Below are positions 6,286-60,299 of a stretch of 64,000 bases of DNA, piece by piece. The notes beneath the pieces are model-generated. The model saw only the letters and a program-made list of their open reading frames with translations, ran no database searches and was not told the DNA's origin. The position numbers and the translations under genes are program-made. Numbering within the stretch: the stretch's first letter is position 1; every line of letters starts with the position of its first letter. The DNA is from Caldicellulosiruptor morganii (GTDB taxonomy: Bacteria; Bacillota; Thermoanaerobacteria; Caldicellulosiruptorales; Caldicellulosiruptoraceae), in contig NZ_CP113865.1 in NCBI RefSeq assembly GCF_026810225.1, positions 1 to 64,000 on the forward strand, written 5' to 3'.

Positions 6286-8709
6286 ATGGAAGAGCTGGAT
6301 TTCAGGATAATCCCTGTTGAGATACAGGAAGAGATGAAAAGAAGCTATATAGACTATGCGATGAGTGTAATTGTATCCCGTGCACTGCCTGATGTAAGAG
6401 ACGGCTTAAAACCTGTCCACAGAAGAATCCTCTACGCCATGAACGAGATAGGGCTTACGCCCGACAAACCGTACAGAAAGTCAGCAACAGTTGTAGGGCA
6501 TGTTCTGGCAAAATACCATCCGCACGGTGATGCTGCTGTTTATGAAAGCCTTGTCAGAATGGCGCAGGAGTTTTCCATGCGCCATCCGCTTGTTGACGGG
6601 CATGGAAACTTTGGATCTGTTGATGGTGACCCGCCGGCTGCTATGCGTTACACAGAGGCGCGTATGAGCAAAATAGCGGTTGAGATGCTTCGCGATATAG
6701 AAAAAGAGACAGTGGAATTTATGCCAAACTTTGATGAGTCTGCAAAAGAGCCAAAGGTTCTGCCATCGCGCTTTCCAAACCTTCTTGTAAACGGCAGCCA
6801 GGGCATTGCTGTTGGTATGGCAACAAACATCCCGCCTCACAACCTTGCAGAGGTAATAGATGCAATCGTGTACATGCTTGACCATGAAAATGCTACATTG
6901 GATGATATAATGAAGATAATAAAAGGGCCTGACTTTCCAACAGGCGGGTACATCATAGGCAAAAAGGGGATAAGGGATGCGTATTCAACAGGCAAAGGTA
7001 AGATAGTTGTCAGGGCAAAAGCTGAGATTGAACACACATCAAAGGGAAGGCAGAGAATTGTTGTTACAGAACTTCCGTACATGGTAAACAAGGCGCGGCT
7101 TATTGAAAAGATTGCCGAGCTTGTTCAGGAGAAGAAAATAGAAGGTATTTCGGACATAAGAGATGAATCTGACAAAGAGGGCTTGAGAATTGTAATAGAG
7201 GTCAAAAAGGATGCAGATGCAAATGTGGTTTTGAAGCAGCTGTACAAAAACACACAGCTTCAGGACACGTTTGGAATAATCATGCTTGCGCTTGTTGACA
7301 ACCAGCCAAAGGTGCTCACACTTCTTGACATGCTAAGCTTTTATATTGAGCATCAAAAAGAAATAATTATCAGAAGAACAAGGTATGACCTTAAAAAAGC
7401 TGAAGAAAGAGCTCATATTCTGGAAGGGCTCAAAAAAGCCCTTGACCATATAGATGAGATTATTTCAATAATTCGCTCATCCAGAACTGTAAATGAGGCA
7501 AAAGAAAGGCTTATAGAAAGATTTTCATTTACTGACATACAGGCACAGGCAATACTTGATATGAGACTGCAAAGACTTACCGGGCTTGAGAGACAGAAGA
7601 TTGAAGAAGAGCTTGCAGAACTTCTCAGGATGATAGAGTACTACAAAAATGTGCTTGCAAGCGAGGCAATGGTGAAGGAGATTATCAAAAAGGAAATTCT
7701 GGAGATAAAAGAAAAGTACAGAGATGAGAGAAGAACAAAGATCATACAGGAAGAACATGAGGATTTTGACGAAGAGGAGCTTATCCAGGAGCAGGATACT
7801 GTAATTACACTCACACACTTTGGATACATCAAAAGGCTTCCGCTTGACACATACAGGAGCCAGAAGCGGGGTGGAAAGGGCATAACAGGTATTTCTACCA
7901 GGGAAGAGGACTTTGTCGAAGAGGTGTTTGTCACAACAACTCATAACTACATCCTCTTTTTCACAGACAAAGGCAAGGTTTACAGGCTAAGAGCGTATGA
8001 AGTCCCCGAGGCATCAAGGCAGGCAAAAGGCATGGCGATAGTCAATCTCATACAGATCGAAAAGGATGAAAAAATCACAGCCTGTATGACAGTAAAGGAT
8101 TTCAAAGAAGGATTCTTGATGATGTGTACAAAAAACGGAACAATCAAAAAGGTTTTACTTAGCGAATTTGAAAACACAACCAGGGCGGGTAAAAAAGCAA
8201 TTACGCTTGCCGATGATGACTGCCTGATAGATGTAAAGCTGACATCCGGCAATGATGAAATGGTGCTTGTGTCAAGCAGTGGCTACTGTGTTGTGTTCAA
8301 TGAAAATGATGTGAGGGTTATGGGAAGGTCTGCTAAAGGTATTAAAGGTATGACGCTTGAGGATGGAGATTTCATTGTGGGTATGGAAAAGGCAAGTGAT
8401 GGAAAATATCTTCTGTGCGTTACAGAAAACGGATTTGGAAAAAGAAGCGACATAGAAGAATACCGCAGGACAAGACGCGGTGCAAAGGGCGTTTTGACAT
8501 ACAAAGTTACAGACAAGACAGGCAGGATTGTTGACATCAAGATGGTGGACGACCAGGATGAGATAATGCTGTGTTCAAGCAGCGGAATTTTTATAAGGCT
8601 TGAGGTGAGTCAGGTACCTGTTCAGGGAAGGTCAACACAGGGTGTTAAGCTCATGAGAATTGACGGGGATAATATAAGGGTTTCATCAATTGCAAGAATT
8701 AAAGATTGA
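6286..8709 (+). CDS. gyrA: DNA gyrase subunit A
   Basis: DNA-breaking subunit of gyrase, 807 aa. The catalytic tyrosine lies in AMRYTEARM (about residue 123) and the breakage-reunion domain occupies roughly the first 500 residues. A GyrA-box variant QKRGGKG lies near residue 526. Six beta-pinwheel repeats follow. The GyrA box marks it as gyrase rather than topoisomerase IV. GAGGAGG precedes the ATG. A rho-independent terminator follows directly, closing the replication block. Confidence 0.97.
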
Positions 8710-8721
8710 AGAATAAGAAAG

Positions 8722-8762
8722 GAAGCTGACCCTAAAAAAACAGGGTACAGCTTCTTTTTTTG
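8722..8762 (+). terminator. Terminator after gyrA
   Basis: The stem GAAGCTG-CCCT pairs with AGGGT-CAGCTTC around an A-rich loop and is followed by a run of T. It lies 13 bp after the gyrA stop. Confidence 0.85.
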
Positions 8763-9019
8763 GAATCATTGTGTTACCTCATTAAAATTTTTTAGAATTT
8801 AATTGAAAGAAAATTCAGAGCTGGAGATTATGAAGTTTATAAACTGATTGAAAAGATGCAACCAATAGTATATTATCAAATATGAATATAAATTGTATTA
8901 TAACATGACAACCTTTTATCAAAGTTTGTCAACAATCATCTGCCTAAAAGAGGCATCAAATTCAAAAAGTCACAATTGTTCAACTTCAACCATTGAGAGA
9001 ACGAAAGGAGAGTAAGTTT
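8763..9019. other. Gene-poor spacer before rhomboid gene
   Basis: About 250 bp without an intact gene. A short plus-strand frame at about 8803-8885 (reads AGDYEVYKLIEK) looks like a gene remnant but is too short to assign. A possible -10 (TATTATAA, around 8895) may belong to the rhomboid gene promoter. Confidence 0.35.
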
Positions 9020-9748
9020 ATGATACCACTGAAAGATACCATTCCGAGCAGAGAAAAGCCATTCATGACATGGACAATAATAGCGGTTAATGTCTTTGTA
9101 TTTTTGTATCAGGTTTCACTGCCGCATGAAGCAGCTTTGCAATTTGTTTACAGGTACAGCTTTGTCCCGGCAAGATTTACTTACTACCTTCAGCATGGCT
9201 TTTTGACAGCAATCACCGTTTCGATAGGTTCTATTCTCACAAGCATGTTCATGCACGGAAGCTGGATGCATCTTATTTCAAACATGTGGAGCCTGTGGCT
9301 TTTTGGCGACAATGTGGAAGACAGGGTGGGGCATTTTAGATTCTTGATATTTTACATCTTAAGCGGAATTTCAGCATCGCTTACACACTGGTTTTTCAAT
9401 GCAGCATCGGATGTTCCAACAGTTGGAGCATCCGGTGCAATAGCAGGTGTGATGGGTGCATACTTTTTGATGTTTCCTCTGTCAAGGATTGTGACACTGA
9501 TACCAGTTGGGTTTATTCCACTCTTTGTGGAAATACCGGCTCTTTTCTATCTTGGGATATGGTTTTTATCGCAGGTGTCATCCGGGATACTTGAGCTGTT
9601 TGGGCCTGTTTTTGGTGGCGGGATTGCCTGGTGGGCACACATAGGCGGATTTTTGTTTGGTGTGTTTACAATTAATTTGTTCAAAAAAAGATACAGAAGG
9701 TATAACAACTTCTTTGATGATGAGATTTTCTTTTACCGCTTAATATAA
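9020..9748 (+). CDS. Rhomboid-family intramembrane serine protease
   Basis: Polytopic membrane protease that cleaves within transmembrane helices. The catalytic serine is in GASGAIAGVMGAYF, the histidine in WWAHIGGFLFGV, and the conserved loop HGSWMHLISNMWSLWLFGDNVED is present. About six hydrophobic segments are visible. The ATG at 9020 is preferred over an in-frame TTG at 8993 because AAAGGAGAG precedes it. The last few codons overlap the start of the decayed serine-protease frame at 9739, so the natural C-terminus may have been altered by the same deletion. Confidence 0.9.
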   Translation: MIPLKDTIPSREKPFMTWTIIAVNVFVFLYQVSLPHEAALQFVYRYSFVPARFTYYLQHGFLTAITVSIGSILTSMFMHGSWMHLISNMWSLWLFGDNVEDRVGHFRFLIFYILSGISASLTHWFFNAASDVPTVGASGAIAGVMGAYFLMFPLSRIVTLIPVGFIPLFVEIPALFYLGIWFLSQVSSGILELFGPVFGGGIAWWAHIGGFLFGVFTINLFKKRYRRYNNFFDDEIFFYRLI

Positions 9749-19915: not shown

Positions 19916-20109
19916 ACAACCACCCCTTTTGGATTCTTTTTTTTTTTGATAAAAGCAAAGATGATATTTAAAATATACTCCATTACAATATAAATTTTAA
20001 TGGAAAAAGGTATATTTTTGCAAGAGCCAGATTTGAAAAATCATTTTTGGTTTGTATTTTTGAAAAAGATAATATAAAATAGAATTCAAAAGAATATTAA
20101 ATATGAACC

Positions 20110-20799
20110 TTGCAGGGAGTGGGGAAGATTTTAACCTTTTCGGGATTTTTGAATACTTTAGTTCAGACAAACAGCTGGATATACACACAGGAATTTCTGG
20201 AAAAACTTAAAATACCCGTGCCTTCTGAAAAAGAGCTCAAAAGCTTTGATATAGCAAATGCATTCTACACGGAGTTTTTATATATAGCATATTCACAGGA
20301 TTTGCTCTCAATGCTGAATTCACTTAAAATCTGGGCAGCCAATAACAATCTTGACATATTTGCAGATTTGACCCTTGACATGATACCTATTGTCTGGCTT
20401 GGAGAAGGGTATTATGGAATTGTGCAAAAGCAAAGCGATAGAATAATAATGCCATGTGCACTTTATCAGCACTTTGACGATTTGTATATAAACTTTCCCG
20501 TTTCGAATTATTCTGCGCTTGAGATTTGTGAAGCGTACAGGAAGCTTTTTGAAAACGAAGAAAATGTTGCAATGAATATAACATATGCAAAAACTCTTGA
20601 TCAGCTGAAAAAAGAATTTGGCAAAAACTTTAGAGATTTTGACATAATCTTTAAAGGACCTGACTATTATGATCTTTATTTTAACCCTGTTTCAAAAAGG
20701 CATGTTGTGGCGCCAGTCGGTGAAATTTTAAAGACTATATTTGAGCAGCAGCTGATTTATTTTCATAAGCTTATTAGTATTCATGAGAAGCTTAAATAA
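20110..20799 (+). CDS. Cassette A protein 1 (WLGEGYYGI family)
   Basis: About 225 aa of unknown function. It is clearly homologous to the protein at 54063: shared WIYT, LKSFD, VWLGEGYYGI, IIMP, NVAM, QLKK-F, GPxYYDLxFNPVxK and FHKL in the same order. No signal peptide or transmembrane helix. The first possible start is TTG at 20110. The SD-like GGGAGTGGGG at 20114-20123 and the alignment to the paralogue suggest a start nearer 20128 (ATT). First gene of a three-gene unit with the genes at 20835 and 21362. Family not recognised. Confidence 0.75.
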   Translation: MQGVGKILTFSGFLNTLVQTNSWIYTQEFLEKLKIPVPSEKELKSFDIANAFYTEFLYIAYSQDLLSMLNSLKIWAANNNLDIFADLTLDMIPIVWLGEGYYGIVQKQSDRIIMPCALYQHFDDLYINFPVSNYSALEICEAYRKLFENEENVAMNITYAKTLDQLKKEFGKNFRDFDIIFKGPDYYDLYFNPVSKRHVVAPVGEILKTIFEQQLIYFHKLISIHEKLK

Positions 20800-20834
20800 A
20801 GGTGAAAAAAGAATTACAAAGGAGCTGAAAAGTT

Positions 20835-21341
20835 ATTAGAAAGGTTACAATTACATTTTTCAGTCAGAGTGTTTTAGAAGCTTTCAAAGCCATCTTTGGT
20901 GATGTTGAAATTGGTATGTTTTCTGAAATATCCCCTGCAGTTGAGATTTTTATAGAAAATCTTGTGGAAGCTTTGAAATCAATCAATTTGAACATAAAAA
21001 AAGAGATGATTGATGAAGTAATAATAGAAATAAAACAGGTTCGGGCAAGATATATAGGTTCTGCAAAAGATGTAACAGAGATTTTGAAAGTACTTTCCTA
21101 TCTTTCCCAGAGAGATTTTTTGGAATGCACAGTAAAGTGCAATGTATCTTTAAAAAGCAGATACAGCACAGCATTTTCTGTCAAAAACCTTGAGGTGAGA
21201 TTTTCTCCGCGGCAGATGTATAACCCGAATGTAAAAAAACTGATAGAGGAAATTTCGCAGTATCTTCCGCTCAAAAGTATGCTGGAAAAGGATTTTGACT
21301 TCACAAAACAGGCGCTTGAGTGGATAGGAGAAGAGAATTGA
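20835..21341 (+). CDS. Cassette A protein 2
   Basis: 168 aa if started at ATT 20835, 141 aa if at ATG 20916. The longer version is favoured: AAAGGAG lies at 20818-20824, and the extra residues (KVTITFFSQSVLEAF) align with KIEIYDKLANTIFTT of the paralogue at 54878. The two also share DVTEI/DVTDI and a helical C-terminus (LKSMLEKDFDFTKQAL / VIDMLKTDRKFAIKAI). There is no SD before the ATG. No known domain is recognised. It lies between cassette proteins 1 and 3, 20 bp before the latter. Confidence 0.65.
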   Translation: MRKVTITFFSQSVLEAFKAIFGDVEIGMFSEISPAVEIFIENLVEALKSINLNIKKEMIDEVIIEIKQVRARYIGSAKDVTEILKVLSYLSQRDFLECTVKCNVSLKSRYSTAFSVKNLEVRFSPRQMYNPNVKKLIEEISQYLPLKSMLEKDFDFTKQALEWIGEEN

Positions 21342-21361
21342 GAAAAGAGGATGGTATTTTT

Positions 21362-22189
21362 ATGAGAAAACAGAAAAACAAAGATAACAGCTTCATAAAT
21401 TTTCCAAACAAAGAGAGCATTCTTGATTTTATTGAAAGAAAGCTCTCTGACAGTGCCAGCATAAGAGAGCTTATGAAAGATGATTTTATAAGGTTTTCAA
21501 GTCCGAGGGATTTTTTATATTTTAAATTCTGCCCGGGCTATTTTGGCATGTGCCCGAACGGAAAAAAGAATAAAGACAGCATGTGCAATGCAGCAAACTG
21601 CTGGGAAAAGAAGCTATCAACTTATTTCCCGGATGGCTTTAACAACGATTATATTTTCTTTTACAATCTTGTGAAGGACACAATAACTCCGGGTATCTGC
21701 TATAGCTGTGGTAGCAATGAACTTGTGCTTGAGTGGCAGGATGAAGGATACCTTGCCAAAATAGGGCTTATAAATTTTGCCGACATAGCATATGTGAAAT
21801 GCAGCAAGTGCAAAAAGAGGTATATGTCACATGCAGATAATTTTGCGATAGAGTTTATTTTAAAACTTTACTTAGCAAAACCGGGCAAACGCCTGCCGGT
21901 AAAGCCGGGGCAGACGGTTGTGCTTGCAAAAGACAAGGTTGGGCTTGAGATATTTATAAGGCATCTTAACAAGCTTGAGGACATCAAAGAGGTTTTTGAA
22001 AAGCTTGACCCATTTTCGGTGGCAAAGGAGTTTGGAGAGCTTGATTTAAACCTTGCAGTTTCAGATTTTTTGGGTGACTATTATAATATCGACTACCTAT
22101 CTGAAGAGGATTCTTTGCCTGATGAGGATTTCAAACAGAACTTTGAAGACATTGATATAAAAGATTTGTTTGATGACTTTGAAGATTAA
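21362..22189 (+). CDS. Cassette A protein 3, cysteine-rich metal-binding type
   Basis: 275 aa. An N-terminal cysteine cluster FCPGYFGMCPNG...MCNAANCWEK is followed by DTITPGICYSCGSNELVLEW and KCSKCKKRYMSH, i.e. a zinc-ribbon-like pair of CxxC motifs. The C-terminus is acidic. The paralogue at 58071 shares every one of these motifs. The cysteine set suggests bound zinc or an Fe-S cluster. The ATG at 21362 is preferred over a GTG at 21320 that lies inside the previous gene. A strong terminator follows. Confidence 0.75.
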   Translation: MRKQKNKDNSFINFPNKESILDFIERKLSDSASIRELMKDDFIRFSSPRDFLYFKFCPGYFGMCPNGKKNKDSMCNAANCWEKKLSTYFPDGFNNDYIFFYNLVKDTITPGICYSCGSNELVLEWQDEGYLAKIGLINFADIAYVKCSKCKKRYMSHADNFAIEFILKLYLAKPGKRLPVKPGQTVVLAKDKVGLEIFIRHLNKLEDIKEVFEKLDPFSVAKEFGELDLNLAVSDFLGDYYNIDYLSEEDSLPDEDFKQNFEDIDIKDLFDDFED

Positions 22190-22194
22190 GTAAA

Positions 22195-22226
22195 ACAGGC
22201 GGCAAAAACTGTGCCGCCTGTTTTTT
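22195..22226 (+). terminator. Terminator of cassette A
   Basis: ACAGGCGGC (22195-22203) pairs with GCCGCCTGT (22213-22221), followed by TTTTTT, 5 bp after the stop of protein 3. Confidence 0.9.
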
Positions 22227-27398: not shown

Positions 27399-27806
27399 TT
27401 GAGCAGACTATTTTTGATATTCAACCACACTTTAACAAAGGAGCAGGAACAAGAGGCAAGGGATGTGCTAAAGGTAGATGAGATAATTTCTTTGCCGGAG
27501 AACCTCCAGAATTTCTGGAGCAATATTCCGCCAGAGGTTGATCTTACAAAAGAGATGTTTGAGCCAATTCTGACATTTTTAAAAGATAATAAGTGCGATG
27601 GAGAAAATTACTGTCTTGTGCAGGGTGATTTTGGAGCAACTGTGTATATGGTGAGCTGGTGCTTTGAAAATAGCTTTATTCCGATTTATGCAACAACCAG
27701 AAGGGTTGCACAGGAAGTTACAAAGCCTGATGGTTCTGTTGAGCTGATAAAAGTATTCAAGCATGAGAGGTTCAGAAGGTATATTCTTTTTAACCAAAAA
27801 AGCTGA
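27399..27806 (+). CDS. csx20: Csx20 family protein, predicted ring nuclease
   Basis: 135 aa. The N-terminus LFLIFNHTLTKEQEQEARDVL and the NFWSNIPPE segment are typical of Csx20, a type III CRISPR accessory family. Csx20 has been predicted to be a CARF-related ring nuclease that degrades the cyclic-oligoadenylate messenger. The Csx1 effector follows within about 30 bp, which fits a switch-off role. The start is the TTG at 27399, after AAGGAG. Confidence 0.7.
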   Translation: MSRLFLIFNHTLTKEQEQEARDVLKVDEIISLPENLQNFWSNIPPEVDLTKEMFEPILTFLKDNKCDGENYCLVQGDFGATVYMVSWCFENSFIPIYATTRRVAQEVTKPDGSVELIKVFKHERFRRYILFNQKS

Positions 27807-47904: not shown

Positions 47905-47916
47905 GGAGTGGAAAAA

Positions 47917-51896: not shown

Positions 51897-52292
51897 TTAC
51901 TCTAATTGCAAAAGCTTTTCCAATTTTTTATCAAATGTATACACTGTATAACCATTGCATTTGCTTTGCGCAACTAATACAGCATCAACAAAATCAACGC
52001 CTTTATCTGCATAAATTTTAAGCGCCCCGGTTATTACTGCTAAATCTTGAACAAAAATATTTGGATGAGCAAATAATTTTATTAAAGTATTGCTAATTTC
52101 TTTTCTTTCAACTTTATATAATTTTTCCAAAACATAAATAATTTCAGCAACTACCTCATTCAAAATTAGAACTTCATTGTTTTTAATAATATCCCTGGTA
52201 ACTTGATTAAGTTCAGCAATATCATTTAGTAAAAGACGAAGAATCACATTGGCATCAATTAGTTTTAGAATTCTCTTCTTGTTCTTTTTCAT
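51897..52292 (-). CDS. vapC: VapC-type PIN-domain toxin
   Basis: 131 aa RNase. PIN acidic residues are visible: LIDANVILRLL, LNEVVAEIIYVLE, GVDFVDAVLVA and YTFDKKLEKL. The gene starts inside the end of vapB (38-bp overlap), so translation is coupled. Confidence 0.87.
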   Translation of the reverse strand: MKKNKKRILKLIDANVILRLLLNDIAELNQVTRDIIKNNEVLILNEVVAEIIYVLEKLYKVERKEISNTLIKLFAHPNIFVQDLAVITGALKIYADKGVDFVDAVLVAQSKCNGYTVYTFDKKLEKLLQLE

Positions 52293-52530
52293 AAATTTCC
52301 CTCACATTGTTCTTCCAGGCTTCTTCTTCTTCTCTGGGAATAAAAATTGGATTTTTATATTTAGCAAATACCCCGGATAGTTCGTCTATAATATCATCAC
52401 TTTTTTTACTTTTTTTTCTTTTGTTAAAAGGTATTCTTACTATCACTTCAACAGGTACATTTTTTGCTGATTCAGGGATTTCTACTATTTTTTCAAGTTG
52501 GTAACCATTCACTATTTTTCTAATTATCAT
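52255..52530 (-). CDS. vapB: VapB-type antitoxin
   Basis: 91 aa from ATG 52530 (AAGGTG upstream); the frame is open farther but without an SD. MIIRKIVNGYQLEKIVEIPES resembles a short DNA-binding strand-turn, and the basic KKRKKSKKS linker leads to a helix (AWKNNVREIYEKEQEE) that would bind VapC. A damaged copy lies at 48640-48920. Confidence 0.75.
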   Translation of the reverse strand: MIIRKIVNGYQLEKIVEIPESAKNVPVEVIVRIPFNKRKKSKKSDDIIDELSGVFAKYKNPIFIPREEEEAWKNNVREIYEKEQEENSKTN

Positions 52531-52673
52531 ACTATTCACCTTTATAATACAAACTATTTCTAACAATAAATTGTAACACATCGAAAAGAGATATGCAATC
52601 AGGCAGAAAACAAAACTATAATTGTTACAATAAAAATAAGAAGAGTATTACAAAAGCTATCACCCTTAGTAAC

Positions 52674-54062: not shown

Positions 54063-54728
54063 ATGAAATTATCTTTGATAATAGACATGCTTGTTAGAGA
54101 AAACAGGTGGATATACACAAAAGAGAAATTGATAAATGAATATAATATAAAGACATTACCGACTGATGACATGCTGAAAAGCTTTGATAGTGCGCTTATA
54201 GACTATGATAAATTTAAATTTGTTGTATATGCAGAATCTATACATAGCTTAATACAAAGTGCGAAGTTGTGGGCAAAGAAGAATGATTATGAGATATTTG
54301 CAAAGTTGTCAATGGACAGTATCCCTGTTGTGTGGCTTGGCGAAGGATATTATGGGATTTACAGTTCTGATGGCAAAGCAGTAATAATGCCTGTTGCATT
54401 TTTGATGATTGGCAAAAGCTTAACATACGAACAGGAAAAAAGAATAGGACCCAATGAAGTTGACATTTACAAAAAGATATTTGAAGATGAACCAAATGTG
54501 GCAATGGAAGTTGTCTATGCGACATCTGAAAAGCAGCTTAAGAAAGTATTCAGCCAAACATTTGATAAATTTGAAGTTTTGTTTATGGGACCAGGCTATT
54601 ATGACCTGATGTTCAATCCAGTCACAAAGCAAAGGGTGGTAATGCCAATTGTTAATATAATGAAAACAATGATGGAAAACTATGTAATCTTCTTTCACAA
54701 ACTGCTTGCACGGGATGCTGACAGTTGA
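54063..54728 (+). CDS. Cassette B protein 1 (WLGEGYYGI family)
   Basis: 221 aa from ATG 54063 (AAGGGGGTG upstream), paralogue of the protein at 20110 over its whole length. Shared anchors include RWIYT, LKSFD, IPVVWLGEGYYGI, VIMP, NVAMEVVYAT, GPGYYDLMFNPV and IFFHKL. Soluble, no known domain. Conservation of aromatic and glycine residues suggests a compact ligand-binding or enzymatic fold, but nothing catalytic is recognisable. Confidence 0.75.
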   Translation: MKLSLIIDMLVRENRWIYTKEKLINEYNIKTLPTDDMLKSFDSALIDYDKFKFVVYAESIHSLIQSAKLWAKKNDYEIFAKLSMDSIPVVWLGEGYYGIYSSDGKAVIMPVAFLMIGKSLTYEQEKRIGPNEVDIYKKIFEDEPNVAMEVVYATSEKQLKKVFSQTFDKFEVLFMGPGYYDLMFNPVTKQRVVMPIVNIMKTMMENYVIFFHKLLARDADS

Positions 54729-54877: not shown

Positions 54878-55444
54878 ATGACACAGTCAAATAGCCTTCA
54901 AAAACCTAAAATTAAGTCTGCCAAAATTGAAATCTATGACAAACTTGCAAACACAATTTTTACAACAATTTTAAACACAAATGATAAGCATGTTAATTTT
55001 TACAACAGAGTAATAGATGAATTAAAACGTAAAGGATACAATCTTCCAACCTATTTTGAATATGATTTGTTCAAAATCAAGGTGCTTGGTGTTAAAGTGT
55101 TACTAAATGATGAGATAGATGTAACAGATATAATATTTGAGGTAATTAAACTTGGATTTGGTCCTGCTTTGAAGATTGAATTTATGTGCAGTCTTGACTG
55201 TGTTGGTATGGATTATTCTGAAAAGAAGAAAGGTGATGTTGTGGAGTTTTCGATAAATAACATCAACATTGTACTGCAAGAAGAATATCCTCAGCATATA
55301 TTTGAAAAGTTTGTAAAGCCAGTATTAGAGTTATCCTCTGTAATAGATATGCTTAAAACAGATAGAAAATTTGCAATAAAGGCTATTAAGAGTATTGTTG
55401 ATTCAAGTAAAGACAAACGGTATAATGTCAAGGGGGTTTTTTAA
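54878..55444 (+). CDS. Cassette B protein 2
   Basis: 188 aa, paralogue of the protein at 20835: SAKIEIYDKLANTIFTTIL at the start, DVTDIIFEVIKLGF in the middle, VIDMLKTDRKFAIKAIKSI at the end. Preceded by GAGGGGGGTGAG. It has an alternating beta-strand middle and helical ends. The IS110-family element begins shortly after its stop. Confidence 0.72.
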   Translation: MTQSNSLQKPKIKSAKIEIYDKLANTIFTTILNTNDKHVNFYNRVIDELKRKGYNLPTYFEYDLFKIKVLGVKVLLNDEIDVTDIIFEVIKLGFGPALKIEFMCSLDCVGMDYSEKKKGDVVEFSINNINIVLQEEYPQHIFEKFVKPVLELSSVIDMLKTDRKFAIKAIKSIVDSSKDKRYNVKGVF

Positions 55445-55561
55445 AAAAATTTTTTAGATAATTAGGGCAAAAAAGGCAATAGAATACCGAGCCGCTCAGC
55501 CTGGAAAAATTTAACTGGCAGCTTGTTTTGAGAAGATTATTAAATTAAGAAATGGGATTAA

Positions 55562-56806
55562 CTAAGTATTGTAAACATCACCTCTTTCTTGATATATTTG
55601 ACCTTTGCTGAGCATTGCAAAGATCAGAGGAATTAATCGTCTTGCGGTGAGGACGAGGGCACGTTTATGCTGATGTTTGGTAACCTCTGAGAACTTCTTG
55701 TTGTAGAAGGCTTTATAACGGACTGTGTGCACCCTAACACAGTTAGCAGCCTCAACAAGATAGTATCTCAGGTATTGGTTACCACACTTAGCCAATGAGG
55801 TTTCCTGGGCATTGAAATTGCCTGATTGGTATTGAGTCCAAACAAGGCCGGAGTATTTAGCTAAAGCAGCTTCATTTTTGAAGCGCTTGATATCACCGAT
55901 TTCAGCGATGATGCCGGCTGCAAGAACATCTCCTATGCCAGGGATGGTGGTCAAGGTTTGGGAGAAAGCTTTAAGAAGTTTTGAGATTTCTTTGTCGAGT
56001 TTTTTAAGTTGTTCTTGCATAAATCTAATGTTTTCAAGAGTCATAGACAAAGCTAAGTCATTTGCCTCAGCCAACAGAGGATGTAATCTGTATGAACGAT
56101 TAGCAGCGGTTTTAAGTATTTCAGCGATTTTATTGACATCTGATAATCTGTTGTTGCCGTTGTCAGATACAAATTTAATTAAATCTTCTAAAGGCATGGA
56201 AGCAATATCATCTGGGGTGAAGTTTTCGATGATAGCGCAAGATGCCTTACCGAAGATATCAGAAAATGGGCAGTCTTGAGAATAAGTGGAGAATTTAAGG
56301 TATATGAGATTGAGAGCTCTGTTTTTTTCGCGAGTTAGATTATGAACAAGGTGATAGCGCATTCTGGTAAGGCGTTGTAGTGCAGCATATTTGAAGTCAG
56401 GCAAAGGTGTTGGATTTAGCTTACTGAACCTGACGCATTCAGCAATAACGACAGCGTCGATGTTATCTGTTTTAGGCAAGAAAGTGTAGATCTTTTTAAA
56501 TCCTTTGACGATGCTTGGGTTGAGCACGTAAAAGGTTGGTTTGTAAGGTAGTAATTCAGAAGAGGAAGCAAGATACAAATGCAGATGCCAACCGTAATGT
56601 GAAGTTGCTTCCATGCCGAATTTAACGTAGGACAGATTATACTGGCTGAGGCAGTCAATGACTCTTTTGATTAATTCATTAGCACCTTCTTGATCGTTAG
56701 GCAAGGAAAAGGGTTTTTTAATCAAGTGATTTCCGGCATCATCGATGAAGAAGATAGAATTTGACTGACTACTGATATCAATGCCCACGATTAAAGTATT
56801 TGGCAA
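55562..56806 (-). CDS. IS110-family DEDD transposase
   Basis: 414 aa. An N-terminal DEDD RuvC-like domain (IVGIDISSQSNSIFF, MEATSHYGWHL, DNIDAVVIAECV) leads to the coiled middle and the C-terminal Transposase_20 domain with the serine nucleophile region (TTIPGIGDVLAAGIIAEIG; LAKYSGLVW). AAAGGAGG precedes the ATG. It appears intact. The family uses a structured RNA to choose target and donor. Confidence 0.92.
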   Translation of the reverse strand: MPNTLIVGIDISSQSNSIFFIDDAGNHLIKKPFSLPNDQEGANELIKRVIDCLSQYNLSYVKFGMEATSHYGWHLHLYLASSSELLPYKPTFYVLNPSIVKGFKKIYTFLPKTDNIDAVVIAECVRFSKLNPTPLPDFKYAALQRLTRMRYHLVHNLTREKNRALNLIYLKFSTYSQDCPFSDIFGKASCAIIENFTPDDIASMPLEDLIKFVSDNGNNRLSDVNKIAEILKTAANRSYRLHPLLAEANDLALSMTLENIRFMQEQLKKLDKEISKLLKAFSQTLTTIPGIGDVLAAGIIAEIGDIKRFKNEAALAKYSGLVWTQYQSGNFNAQETSLAKCGNQYLRYYLVEAANCVRVHTVRYKAFYNKKFSEVTKHQHKRALVLTARRLIPLIFAMLSKGQIYQERGDVYNT

Positions 56807-56865
56807 TTTAAAGGCCTCCTTTCTAAAGTGTGTGGTGTTAGAAAAAAGTTTTGCCCTTTATCCCT

Positions 56866-57009
56866 GGGGATTACATGTAATGCAGCCTCGCCGATATTAG
56901 AGCTACGGAGCAGTTTACAGGGTGCACACATCTGACATGCTCAAATCAGATGTGGTAAACTGACCGTGCACAGCAAACGAGTAAACATTACTCATGTAAT
57001 CCTTTGGGG
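56866..57009 (-). ncRNA. Candidate bridge RNA of the IS110 element
   Basis: Non-coding 5' region of the transposase with nested pairing. GGGGATTACATG pairs with CATGTAATCC-GGGG (outer stem, 56866 and 56994-57009). Inside, CAGTTTAC (56911-56918) pairs with GTAAACTG (56955-56962), and CACATCTGA (56927-56935) with TCAGATGTG (56946-56954). The internal loops could hold target and donor guides. Strand assumed the same as the transposase. Confidence 0.6.
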
Positions 57010-57318
57010 TTCAGTCTTTCTCAAGCTGTGGCGTGCAGATATCAAAGCACGTCCAGCAGGAGGTGGCAAAAAATATCCAAATAAACTAAATCAGGCTTAA
57101 ACTTTTTCTGATATTAGTTTACCAGAGATAAAGGGCAAATTTAAACTGTAGCAGTCAATTTTAATATTCAATTTTTTAAGAAGTGAATGTGTTAAGAAAA
57201 GCTTTGTTATCAAGGTCAGTTTCCAGTAATCAATTGGTACTAATAATTTAATGTACCAATTGAGATATGAAGTTTTAAGTGATTTGATAATCATATTATA
57301 CGAGGAGGTTGATTTGAT

Positions 57319-57717
57319 ATGTTTAATGATAAGAATCAATTTTATATCAAAACTGTAAAGGCTAAATTAGAAGGTAATCCTGATACTCTTACTGTAACGT
57401 GTGATTGGATTCTTGATAAGGAACATTATCCAAGGTATTGTAAATACAGAAGTCCAGAATGTGAAGATAGATGTGAAGATTGTGATATTGAAATAGTGCT
57501 TGAAGATTTATGTTTTGATGTAAAGCTTACAGAGGAGTATATGAAAGAACTCAAGGAAGCAAGAACTCATTTTCTAAATACAAATGATGATAGTTTATAT
57601 GAAAGTGTTATTGATAAAATTCTTCATGCAATAGATTATGATGAGAATTTAGAATTAACGTTAAATTTAGAATATGCAAAAGTTACTTATAGAAATAAAA
57701 AGGAGATGATAAACTAA
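57319..57717 (+). CDS. Small cysteine-cluster protein in cassette B
   Basis: 132 aa; a CKYRSPECEDRCEDCD cluster near residue 45 looks like a metal site, followed by an acidic helix-rich part (FLNTNDDSLYESVIDKIL). GAGGAGG precedes the ATG. No counterpart in cassette A. Not recognised. The 220 bp between the IS110 element and this gene show no coding frame. Confidence 0.65.
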   Translation: MFNDKNQFYIKTVKAKLEGNPDTLTVTCDWILDKEHYPRYCKYRSPECEDRCEDCDIEIVLEDLCFDVKLTEEYMKELKEARTHFLNTNDDSLYESVIDKILHAIDYDENLELTLNLEYAKVTYRNKKEMIN

Positions 57718-57736: not shown

Positions 57737-57856
57737 ATGGGTATTCTATATTTGATAGCTGTTATGATTCATATTTTTCTTGTAAAACTTATTCGTGGTG
57801 ATGAGGCAGCAGAGAGATTAGCTGATGCTTATAAAAATAGATGGAAGAAAAAATAA
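57737..57856 (+). CDS. Possible single-pass membrane peptide
   Basis: 39 aa: a hydrophobic helix MGILYLIAVMIHIFLVKLI followed by a charged tail (RGDEAAERLADAYKNRWKKK). The SD is weak, since AAGGAG lies about 30 bp upstream. Inward-facing basic tail predicted. Confidence 0.4.
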   Translation: MGILYLIAVMIHIFLVKLIRGDEAAERLADAYKNRWKKK

Positions 57857-57873
57857 AAAAGAGGGTGTGATTG

Positions 57874-58011
57874 ATGGGTGTTATCTTTGGAATTATAATT
57901 CTGATTATTCTCTCTCCCATCTTAATTCCACTTCTTGGCATTGCTTTGTTTATTCTGTATTTTTTCTTTAGTATTATTGTTGGGATTATAAAAGCAATTC
58001 TGAGGGCATAG
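57874..58011 (+). CDS. Small hydrophobic membrane peptide
   Basis: 45 aa, almost wholly hydrophobic, predicted as two short helices (IIILIILSPILIPLLGIALF; ILYFFFSIIVGIIKAIL). GAGGGTG precedes the ATG. Such peptides occur as toxins or as membrane anchors; nothing decides between them here. It lies 17 bp after the previous small frame and about 60 bp before protein 3. Confidence 0.5.
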   Translation: MGVIFGIIILIILSPILIPLLGIALFILYFFFSIIVGIIKAILRA

Positions 58012-58070
58012 AAAACTCAACTATATTTTAAGATTATAAAAGATAATATAAAGAAGGAGATTGTTTGGAA

Positions 58071-58958
58071 ATGAGCTATAAGAAAAAAGAAATTGAATGC
58101 TGGACTCCTGAAATGATGTATGAAGGAAAGAGTGTATTGTATGTCACAGAGCTTCATGTTGAACCAAATGCAAGTTTTATGCTTTTGAAAAATGATGATC
58201 CTGAAGTAAGAGCAAAACGTGTTAAAGATTATCTTGCAATCAAATACTGTCCTGCATATTTTGGAATGTGTTTAAAAGGCAAAACAAAAAAAGATGAAAC
58301 ATGTGATTCTTCTGTTTGCTGGGCTAAATCGTATAATGAATATTACATGAAAGAATGCAAAGGAGATTTGAAGTCCTATGATAATCTTATAAAGGATACC
58401 ATAACACCAGCAATGTGTTATGAATGTGGATATGATGATTTAGAGCTTATCTGGTCAGATGAAGTTGTTAAGACAAGAAAGTATGGTCAGATTATATTTG
58501 ACAATGTTGCCTATGTTGTATGTCCAAGATGCGGTGCAAAATATATGTCTCATCAGGATAAGATCACTATTGAAATTATCAAAAGAGCTCTTGATACTGA
58601 GTGGGTTGTAAATGAGCTACGAAGAGAATATAAGATAGTACAAATAGATAAAATTGATTTATCAAAGAAAGATAAAGTAGGACAGCAACTGTTTTTTGAA
58701 ACAGTGATTGGTAATTTAGAAAAAAATAATTTTGATCTTATACAGGGATTAGCAGACACAATCCTTATGGATGCTGATACAGCTATGCATTTATTTATAC
58801 TCTCATATTTCAGGCTTGATGAAAAGTATATGGCAGATATAGAAGAAGAGTTTTCTGAAGAGTTTGAAGAGAATGAAGAACTTGATTTAAGTGGAGATCC
58901 TAATGATAACGAAAATAATTACAATGGGTGGGTACCAGAAGATGACTTGCCAGTATGA
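58071..58958 (+). CDS. Cassette B protein 3, cysteine-rich metal-binding type
   Basis: 295 aa from ATG 58071 (TTG 58065 also possible; AAGGAGA upstream). It shares with the protein at 21362 the cluster YCPAYFGMCLKG...TCDSSVCWAK, then DTITPAMCYECGYDDLELIW and VCPRCGAKYMSHQDK, with the same spacing, and an acidic C-terminus. All eight motif cysteines are conserved in both copies, arguing for structural metal binding. Last gene of cassette B. Confidence 0.75.
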   Translation: MSYKKKEIECWTPEMMYEGKSVLYVTELHVEPNASFMLLKNDDPEVRAKRVKDYLAIKYCPAYFGMCLKGKTKKDETCDSSVCWAKSYNEYYMKECKGDLKSYDNLIKDTITPAMCYECGYDDLELIWSDEVVKTRKYGQIIFDNVAYVVCPRCGAKYMSHQDKITIEIIKRALDTEWVVNELRREYKIVQIDKIDLSKKDKVGQQLFFETVIGNLEKNNFDLIQGLADTILMDADTAMHLFILSYFRLDEKYMADIEEEFSEEFEENEELDLSGDPNDNENNYNGWVPEDDLPV

Positions 58959-59133: not shown

Positions 59134-60261
59134 CTATTTAAGATGCTTATCAATTTTATCCAGAATATATATACCATCTTCATCTTCTCTAATATATAGT
59201 CTTCTGCTATCGTCACCATCGAAAGGATAAAACTCATACTTATAAATTTTGGAGATTTTACCTTCTAATTCGTGAAATCTAAGAGAAGAAGGATTATAGC
59301 CAAAGTTTGTAGCAACTGCTTTTTCAAAATCATCAATTTTTTTATTCAGTTGCAAGCGTTCAAAAGGATTTAAATCTTCAAATTGTTTTTTCAAATAATC
59401 AGATATTCTGATTTTATCAGAAATTGGATTGTTTAGCCTTTCTTTATAAGTGTTTTCTTTTACTTCCTGCCAGACAAGGGTTCCCCATGCTGAGATAATA
59501 AAATCGCCATCTATTTCTAAATATAGAATTTCAGGTAACTTGTATATTTCCTTTTTAATCCTTTCATTGTATATTCCAAGATCTAACATCCTAAATAAGT
59601 CAAAATGTTCTATAAAGATAGTATCATCTACCTTTACGGGGAGCTTTGGAATTCTCAATAAACTATTGCTTGTTTCAAAGATATATATGCTTTCATCGGC
59701 ATACAAAGATGCGACAGTTTGAAGAAAGCTGTTTATACTTTTAAAACCGCCTGTGAGGTTAAAAATTATTTTATAACCATTTGATTTATATTCTTTCAAC
59801 GTTTCTGCCAATTTTTTAGCCAGCTCGGATAAGGAGAAAGAAAATTTTTCAAAGTCAGATGTTCTAAGATAAGAGGAAGTTTCTATAAAAACATTACCAA
59901 TTCCATTTTTTTTAAAAACATTCTCTAAAATCTTAGCAATGTTTTTTCCCAGATATGTATCTGTATGCAAAAAACAATACATATCAGTTTTAGGCAAATC
60001 TTTTAAACTGTTTATTTTATAAAATTCCATCAAGGCATTCAGTTCTGCACTTACCTTTTTTATTTTTGTTATATCTGACTTTAAAAGTTGCTCCTCAACA
60101 GCATTCAAAAACTCATCAAATATCTTCTTCTTTTCGACAGAAAACTCATTTTCAGTATAGTTAGAATAACTATAAATATCCTCGATAAAATTCAAATCCT
60201 TTTTAAGATTTGTTAGTATACTCAAACCGCAGCTTGTTAAAACAAAATTGTTGAACCCCAT
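59134..60261 (-). CDS. CARF-RelE-like type III effector (Cami1-like)
   Basis: 375 aa from ATG 60261; a TTG at 60294 is also in frame. The N-terminus FVLTSCGLSILTNL and NLTGGFKSINSFLQTVASLY are CARF-domain motifs of the APE2256/Csm6 group. The last 60 residues (SSLRFHELEGKISKIYKYEF, RRLYIREDEDGIYILD) resemble RelE-type mRNA interferases. CARF-RelE fusions are known cyclic-oligoadenylate-activated ribosome-dependent RNases. It is 21 kb from the csm operon and its upstream region is replaced by the IS607 end. Confidence 0.7.
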   Translation of the reverse strand: MGFNNFVLTSCGLSILTNLKKDLNFIEDIYSYSNYTENEFSVEKKKIFDEFLNAVEEQLLKSDITKIKKVSAELNALMEFYKINSLKDLPKTDMYCFLHTDTYLGKNIAKILENVFKKNGIGNVFIETSSYLRTSDFEKFSFSLSELAKKLAETLKEYKSNGYKIIFNLTGGFKSINSFLQTVASLYADESIYIFETSNSLLRIPKLPVKVDDTIFIEHFDLFRMLDLGIYNERIKKEIYKLPEILYLEIDGDFIISAWGTLVWQEVKENTYKERLNNPISDKIRISDYLKKQFEDLNPFERLQLNKKIDDFEKAVATNFGYNPSSLRFHELEGKISKIYKYEFYPFDGDDSRRLYIREDEDGIYILDKIDKHLK

Positions 60262-60299
60262 GGAAAAGATAACCTGGTCATCTAAACTGTGCAAAACTG

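Follow-up and report, generated by a model that had tools for sequence, protein, structure and literature searches.

A genus-conserved three-gene unit of Caldicellulosiruptor with apparent AUU starts in two genes and a YgiT/MqsA-N-like zinc finger encoded by the third

The first 64,000 nucleotides of Caldicellulosiruptor morganii contig NZ_CP113865.1 (hereafter the window, which from reading its first ORF we take to begin at dnaA) contain three adjacent genes, here named P1, P2 and P3, which were found in the same order and on the same strand in all 12 Caldicellulosiruptor genomes. The unit, its conservation, the purifying selection on its genes, the pattern of start codons (ATT for P1 and P2, ATG for P3) and the similarity of P3 to MqsA/YgiT-type zinc fingers are all seen in the sequences compared here. 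We tentatively propose, rating this reading somewhat short of probable, that P1-P2-P3 is a genus-core, low-copy unit in which P1 and P2 would start at AUU, and P3, starting at AUG, would be made in excess and act as a scaffold or inhibitor.

Genomic context and conservation

The copy found in all genomes (copy A) is encoded on the forward strand of the window and comprises P1A (223 aa, 20128–20799), P2A (168 aa, 20835–21341) and P3A (275 aa, 21362–22189). It is preceded by a promoter-like TTGTAT - 17 nt - TAAAAT (20052–20080, forward strand) and followed by a terminator-like hairpin with a T run (22192–22226, forward strand; RNA fold z -5.4). The promoter-like box was read from the alignment and not listed by a consensus scan; it aligned as TTGTAA/T - 17 nt - TAAAAT in 12 of 12 genomes and looks sigma-A-like. 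Most other genomes also have such a hairpin after P3A, L021 being a clear exception, and the gap between P1 and P2 measures 28–35 nt throughout. Copy A is predicted to be one transcription unit. The dN/dS ratios were 0.05–0.19 in most pairs for P1, P2 and P3, with higher values (0.13–0.41) mainly in the closest pairs, where few sites have changed, and by this measure all three genes are under purifying selection.

When P3A was used as query, a match was obtained in 12 of 12 genus genomes and in none of 89 others. In the class (37 genomes) and in a sample of 398 genomes from the phylum, profile searches returned no relatives beyond the genus. None were found either when about 85,000 species genomes were scanned twice with patterns of P1 and P3, which rest on few peptides and can miss distant relatives, or in the viral contigs, phages and plasmids searched. 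As the 12 genomes belong to one genus, their agreement does not amount to 12 independent events. Among the genomes searched, P1 and P2 always occurred together and never alone, and P3 without P1 and P2 was found in three of the 12 (G004, G006 and G007), partly as broken copies; the trio is thus not a set of mostly unrelated single genes.

In most genomes the upstream order reads two WYL proteins, a GGDEF-EAL protein (presumably, as named by reading), a 131-aa protein, a divergent spoVS and P1-P2-P3. The stretch from the GGDEF-EAL gene to P3 is kept in all 12, including the divergent spoVS directly upstream of copy A. The downstream side is variable: the window and some relatives have CRISPR arrays and Cas genes there, and another clade has csx20 followed by spoVAC, spoVAD and spoVAE-like genes (identified in L027, and in the rest of its clade by size and order). 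No CRISPR array was found near copy A in six of the 12 genomes (fetched flanks, about 10 kb on each side). From these neighbourhoods, copy A is a core locus that borders a variable region and lies outside the CRISPR island. A preliminary description of this DNA, made from its sequence alone, had considered it plausible from their surroundings that the genes are accessory and possibly defence-related. For copy A this is not supported, given its presence in every genome, its conserved site by spoVS, the purifying selection and the array-free fetched flanks in half of the genomes. The suggestion may still apply to a second copy (copy B) and the P3-only paralogues, which are accessory and lie beside CRISPR arrays.

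Start codons of P1 and P2

The conserved coding sequence of P1 (ILTFSEFLN) opens with ATT in 12 of 12 genomes, and that of P2 (I[RK]KVT[IV]TF) opens with ATT in 11 and with ATA in one. A purine-rich Shine-Dalgarno-like sequence precedes the conserved codon in both genes; in the window these are AGGGAG at 20114–20119 before the P1A ATT (20128–20130) and AAAGGAG at 20818–20824 before the P2A ATT (20835–20837), all on the forward strand, and in L025, L027 and L029 AGGGAG is replaced by AAGGAGG. The gene starts given previously were the first available ATG, GTG or TTG, with the ORFs of P1A and P2A listed from TTG 20110 and ATG 20916; these need revision, the probable starts being ATT 20128, ATT 20835 and, for P3A, ATG 21362.

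Upstream of P2, a canonical start before the conserved ATT/ATA was found in none of the 12 genomes, and in nine of them an in-frame stop lies at most three codons before the ATT; in four genomes a GTG a few codons inside P2 would be usable as a start. P1 has no ATG, GTG or TTG at or before its conserved start in L025, L026, L027 and L029, and in L025 a single codon separates the ATT from a preceding TAA. Some genomes, including that of the window, do have an in-frame ATG, GTG or TTG at least three codons upstream of the P1 ATT. The upstream ATGs of other genomes are out of frame in L026 and L028 due to indels between the Shine-Dalgarno sequence and the ATT, and are therefore unlikely to be the ancestral start. 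Judged by the lack of a canonical start and the presence of AUU/AUA behind a Shine-Dalgarno sequence, the case is clear for P2, and for P1 it is clear in four genomes and made elsewhere by the upstream indels.

The starts of 22 orthologue groups from the flanks were also compared: no ATG, GTG or TTG was present near the conserved start in 8/12 members of P2 and 4/12 of P1. These were the only plausible genes among the 22 groups with at least one third of the members lacking a canonical start, two further flagged groups looking like ORFs antisense to real genes, and P3 never lacked one. The third-base conservation of the ATT is weak evidence alone, because all 12 genomes also use ATT for another invariant isoleucine of P1. 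We regard it as improbable that the ATT codons are not starts and that upstream GTG, TTG or ATG codons or internal starts are used instead: several genomes, the window included, do have in-frame canonical codons shortly before P1, but these are unavailable for P1 in the four genomes named above and for P2 in all, indels and stops lie directly upstream, and internal starts would cut off conserved sequence. P1 and P2 hence appear to begin at AUU.

The classical gene with a non-canonical AUU/AUA start is infC, encoding initiation factor IF3. The infC gene of the same genome (L070; G000:C1:1451720-1452223, minus strand) reads AGGAGGTG-N7-ATA, with an apparent ATA start. In Staphylococcus aureus, a conserved AUU start in cvfC1 and conserved AUA starts in ccpN and infC are accompanied by extended Shine-Dalgarno sequences, and in poor medium reporters with such starts were expressed at about 10% of the level obtained with AUG (PMC13009471), while PncA of B. 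burgdorferi starts at AUU (PMC13398362). P1 and P2 share with infC, ccpN and cvfC1 the AUU/AUA codon behind a Shine-Dalgarno sequence and its conservation within a lineage, but P1-P2-P3 differs in having two consecutive AUU genes in one operon and a third gene starting at AUG; moreover, the S. aureus AUU/AUA starts were tested by experiment (PMC13009471), whereas those of P1 and P2 are inferred. Few genes have a conserved AUU/AUA start, and those that do are dose-controlled at initiation; two in a row in an operon kept across a genus offer a testable case of start-codon control of stoichiometry. An annotation rule that accepts only ATG, GTG and TTG shortens such genes, P2 of the window by 27 residues and P1 of L026 by about 50.

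The P3 zinc finger and searches for related families

P3A carries an N-terminal Cys4 region, a YgiT/MqsA-N-like zinc finger and an acidic C-terminal tail. Of 17 P3 sequences, 14 touched the MqsA model and 12 the YgiT_finger model, with weak E-values. For the whole-protein MqsA family (TIGR03830), P3A scored 12.1 bits against a cut-off of 61.8, with a best E-value of 0.0017 among the 17 members, and PF15731 matched three members with a best E-value of 0.0056. On the YgiT finger (TIGR03831, cut-off 20.2 bits), P3B of the second copy scored 24.7 bits in the genome search and 19.9 in the protein scan, and the P3A orthologues 16–19 bits in the genome search. A direct comparison between the P3 profile and a profile of YgiT fingers from relatives gave an hhalign P of 2.5e-5 and a score of 32.8, above all of 200 cysteine-keeping shuffles (best 28.3). 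The AlphaFold model of P3 was of low confidence, with a pLDDT of 51; among its Foldseek matches, none of which reached significance, MqsA structures ranked 2, 5, 7 and 9, which lends weak support.

P3 resembles the MqsA/YgiT-type antitoxins (TIGR03830, TIGR03831, PF15731) in its Cys-x2-Cys ... Cys-x2-Cys finger, with similar spacing and flanks, and in being encoded by the last gene of an operon. It differs from them in its length of about 275 aa, an extra Cys4 region before the finger, the lack of a detectable helix-turn-helix and of an MqsR-like partner, and scores of P3A below the family cut-offs. None of the 17 members matched a helix-turn-helix family, although a divergent one could escape such searches. 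Because no helix-turn-helix was detected, a second Cys4 region is present and the score is far too low for the family cut-off, P3 is, by its sequence, an MqsA-N/YgiT-like finger protein and not an MqsA. A 343-aa frame with a YgiT finger at ~458.5 kb was considered as a P3 paralogue and rejected, as it reads as a helix-turn-helix protein with an N-terminal finger and did not align with P3. L105 encodes (8527-9552) a 341-aa protein that combines a YgiT-like finger at its N-terminus with a stretch resembling a helix-turn-helix, and many genomes of the genus contain frames of similar size with a finger.

No match beyond chance was found for P1 or P2 in Pfam, NCBIfam, PHROGs, PADLOC or PDB sequences. 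The PDB sequence search returned matches to poxvirus F1L and an MCM zinc ribbon, which were dismissed as chance level. All three proteins gave only chance-level or sub-threshold matches in Pfam, PHROGs, NCBIfam and PADLOC, including chance-level ones (E > 0.002) to the PADLOC candidate defence families. The AlphaFold model of P1 had a pLDDT of 44, like that of P3 too poor to build on, and Foldseek returned nothing significant for it. The profile and structure searches proposed earlier for each protein thus uncovered the zinc finger of P3 and no family or fold for P1 and P2; the earlier statement that none of the partners belongs to a known family holds for these two and fails, for P3, only for the zinc-finger domain.

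The second copy and its IS110-like insertion

A second set of P1, P2 and P3, with order and strand unchanged, lies 34 kb from copy A in the window, and the sequence motifs quoted in the preliminary description were found in the proteins. P1A and P1B share 41% identity over 225 aa (BLASTP, E 2e-60) and P3A and P3B 38% over 189 aa (E 5e-38). BLASTP found no significant match between P2A and P2B (E 0.41); a profile of 12 P2A orthologues aligned collinearly with P2B over 126 columns (hhalign P 0.001, 17–25% identity), and P2B scored above 2000 of 2000 shuffles of itself, narrowly (11.0 vs 10.3 bits). From the profile match and the synteny, P2A and P2B are likely homologous, so the described recurrence as a unit is borne out by BLASTP for P1 and P3 and by profile only for P2. 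The P1A proteins of all genomes are equally distant from P1B (38–41% identity), which implies either that the two copies split before the sampled genus arose or that copy B is of outside origin, and agrees with the earlier view that both copies are old. P3A, P3B and the lone P3 copies form three lineages with about 28–35% mutual identity.

Copy B exists in only one of the 12 genomes. P1B (54063–54728, forward strand; BLASTP and alignment) carries an ATG that aligns exactly with the ATT of P1A. P2B (54878–55417, forward strand) is broken at its 3' end, at about 55409 and close to its original end, by what we take from the transposase sequence to be an IS110-family element. This IS110-like element spans about 55409–57303 on the reverse strand, with ends set by comparing element copies and a transposase ORF at 55562-56806 on the same strand, and the last residues previously read as P2B derive from it. 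It has 17 matching places in its own genome, nine of which, the copy-B one included, are nearly full-length at 100%; by sequence, it is a later insertion that split copy B after the trio was in place. Between the element and P3B lie PxB (132 aa, 57319–57717) and two small hydrophobic ORFs of about 39 and 45 aa (57737–58011), all on the forward strand. PxB was found only in copy B, had no confident match elsewhere in the genus and was ruled out as a relative of P2 (hhalign P 0.2). The second small ORF had no Pfam match, and neither small ORF has a counterpart in copy A. P3B (58065–58958, forward strand), whose zinc finger scored above the YgiT_finger threshold when the genome was searched, completes the copy. 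Copy B as a unit therefore stands as to order and strand, but not as to contiguity.

At all four sites compared (the window and L072-L074), a Shine-Dalgarno sequence (GGAGG) and a start codon immediately follow the right end of the IS110-like element. The element may target ribosome-binding sites, leaving the downstream gene translatable.

Proposed function and alternatives

For P1 and P2 we infer AUU use and lower translation, with P3 exceeding both and the three proteins binding one another. Under the reading we prefer, translation of P1 and P2 from AUU would be throttled at initiation, giving low-level synthesis that is probably sensitive to the amount of IF3, and P3, translated from AUG, would be made in excess over both. 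P3, as a zinc protein with a central YgiT/MqsA-N-type finger, would probably bind P1 and/or P2 as scaffold or inhibitor, and the trio would work as one low-copy regulated complex; the lone P3 in three genomes argues against such a complex. More doubtful is an operon-level throttle in which, with two AUU genes and an AUG zinc-finger third, the level of free IF3 would set the partner ratio; if this is correct, the unit would represent a genus-core regulatory module from not yet described protein families.

A toxin-antitoxin-like function, with P1 and/or P2 inhibiting growth, P3 as antitoxin, AUU keeping the toxin below the antitoxin and lone P3 genes as orphan antitoxins, appears rather unlikely. 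It would fit the finger type, the unequal start codons, the gene order and the P3-only copies, and copy B lies near other toxin-antitoxin genes, a HicB-like one at 47908 and what by reading we take to be a VapBC-like pair at 51897-52581. On the other hand, a toxin-antitoxin pair would not usually be retained in 12/12 genomes at a single locus and under purifying selection, P3 has no detected helix-turn-helix, and neither P1 nor P2 showed a toxin fold in Pfam, NCBIfam, PHROGs, PADLOC or PDB sequence searches.

A CRISPR-linked accessory or defence role, as for type III ancillary genes, is decidedly unlikely in our judgement. Copy B and most P3-only copies do lie within about 1 kb of arrays, P3B adjoins a CARF-RelE gene and csx20 follows P3A in several genomes, and copy B resembles the PADLOC candidate defence families in consisting of unknown genes near CRISPR arrays. 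This linkage is not conserved, since copy A is array-free in the fetched flanks of 6/12 genomes and is followed by spoVA genes in the genome examined, and the region of copy B is so rich in arrays that adjacency is weak evidence; in addition, there was no convincing PADLOC match and no relative in the phages, plasmids and viral contigs searched. The spoVA genes of the L027 clade, assigned outside L027 from their size and order, and the divergent spoVS in 12/12 genomes could point to a regulator tied to retained sporulation genes, which we consider the least probable of these explanations: the trio was not found in the other sampled genera of the class and phylum, many of them spore formers, the promoter-like box looks sigma-A-like, and neighbourhood alone is weak evidence.

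Some further features of the window were observed. PADLOC models identified a Csx20 gene at 27399-27806 and the CARF-RelE gene at 59134-60294, convergent with P3B. Between spoVS and P1, the block TACAATATAAATTTTA...TATAATTTTGCAAGAG (19985-20030) is almost invariant in the 12 genomes and is possibly a shared operator or the spoVS promoter. Finally, copy A is on the forward strand and 20-32 kb from the contig start in four genomes, and on the reverse strand and ~31-36 kb before the contig end in the other eight. Provided that every contig starts at dnaA, this arrangement suggests an origin-symmetric inversion.
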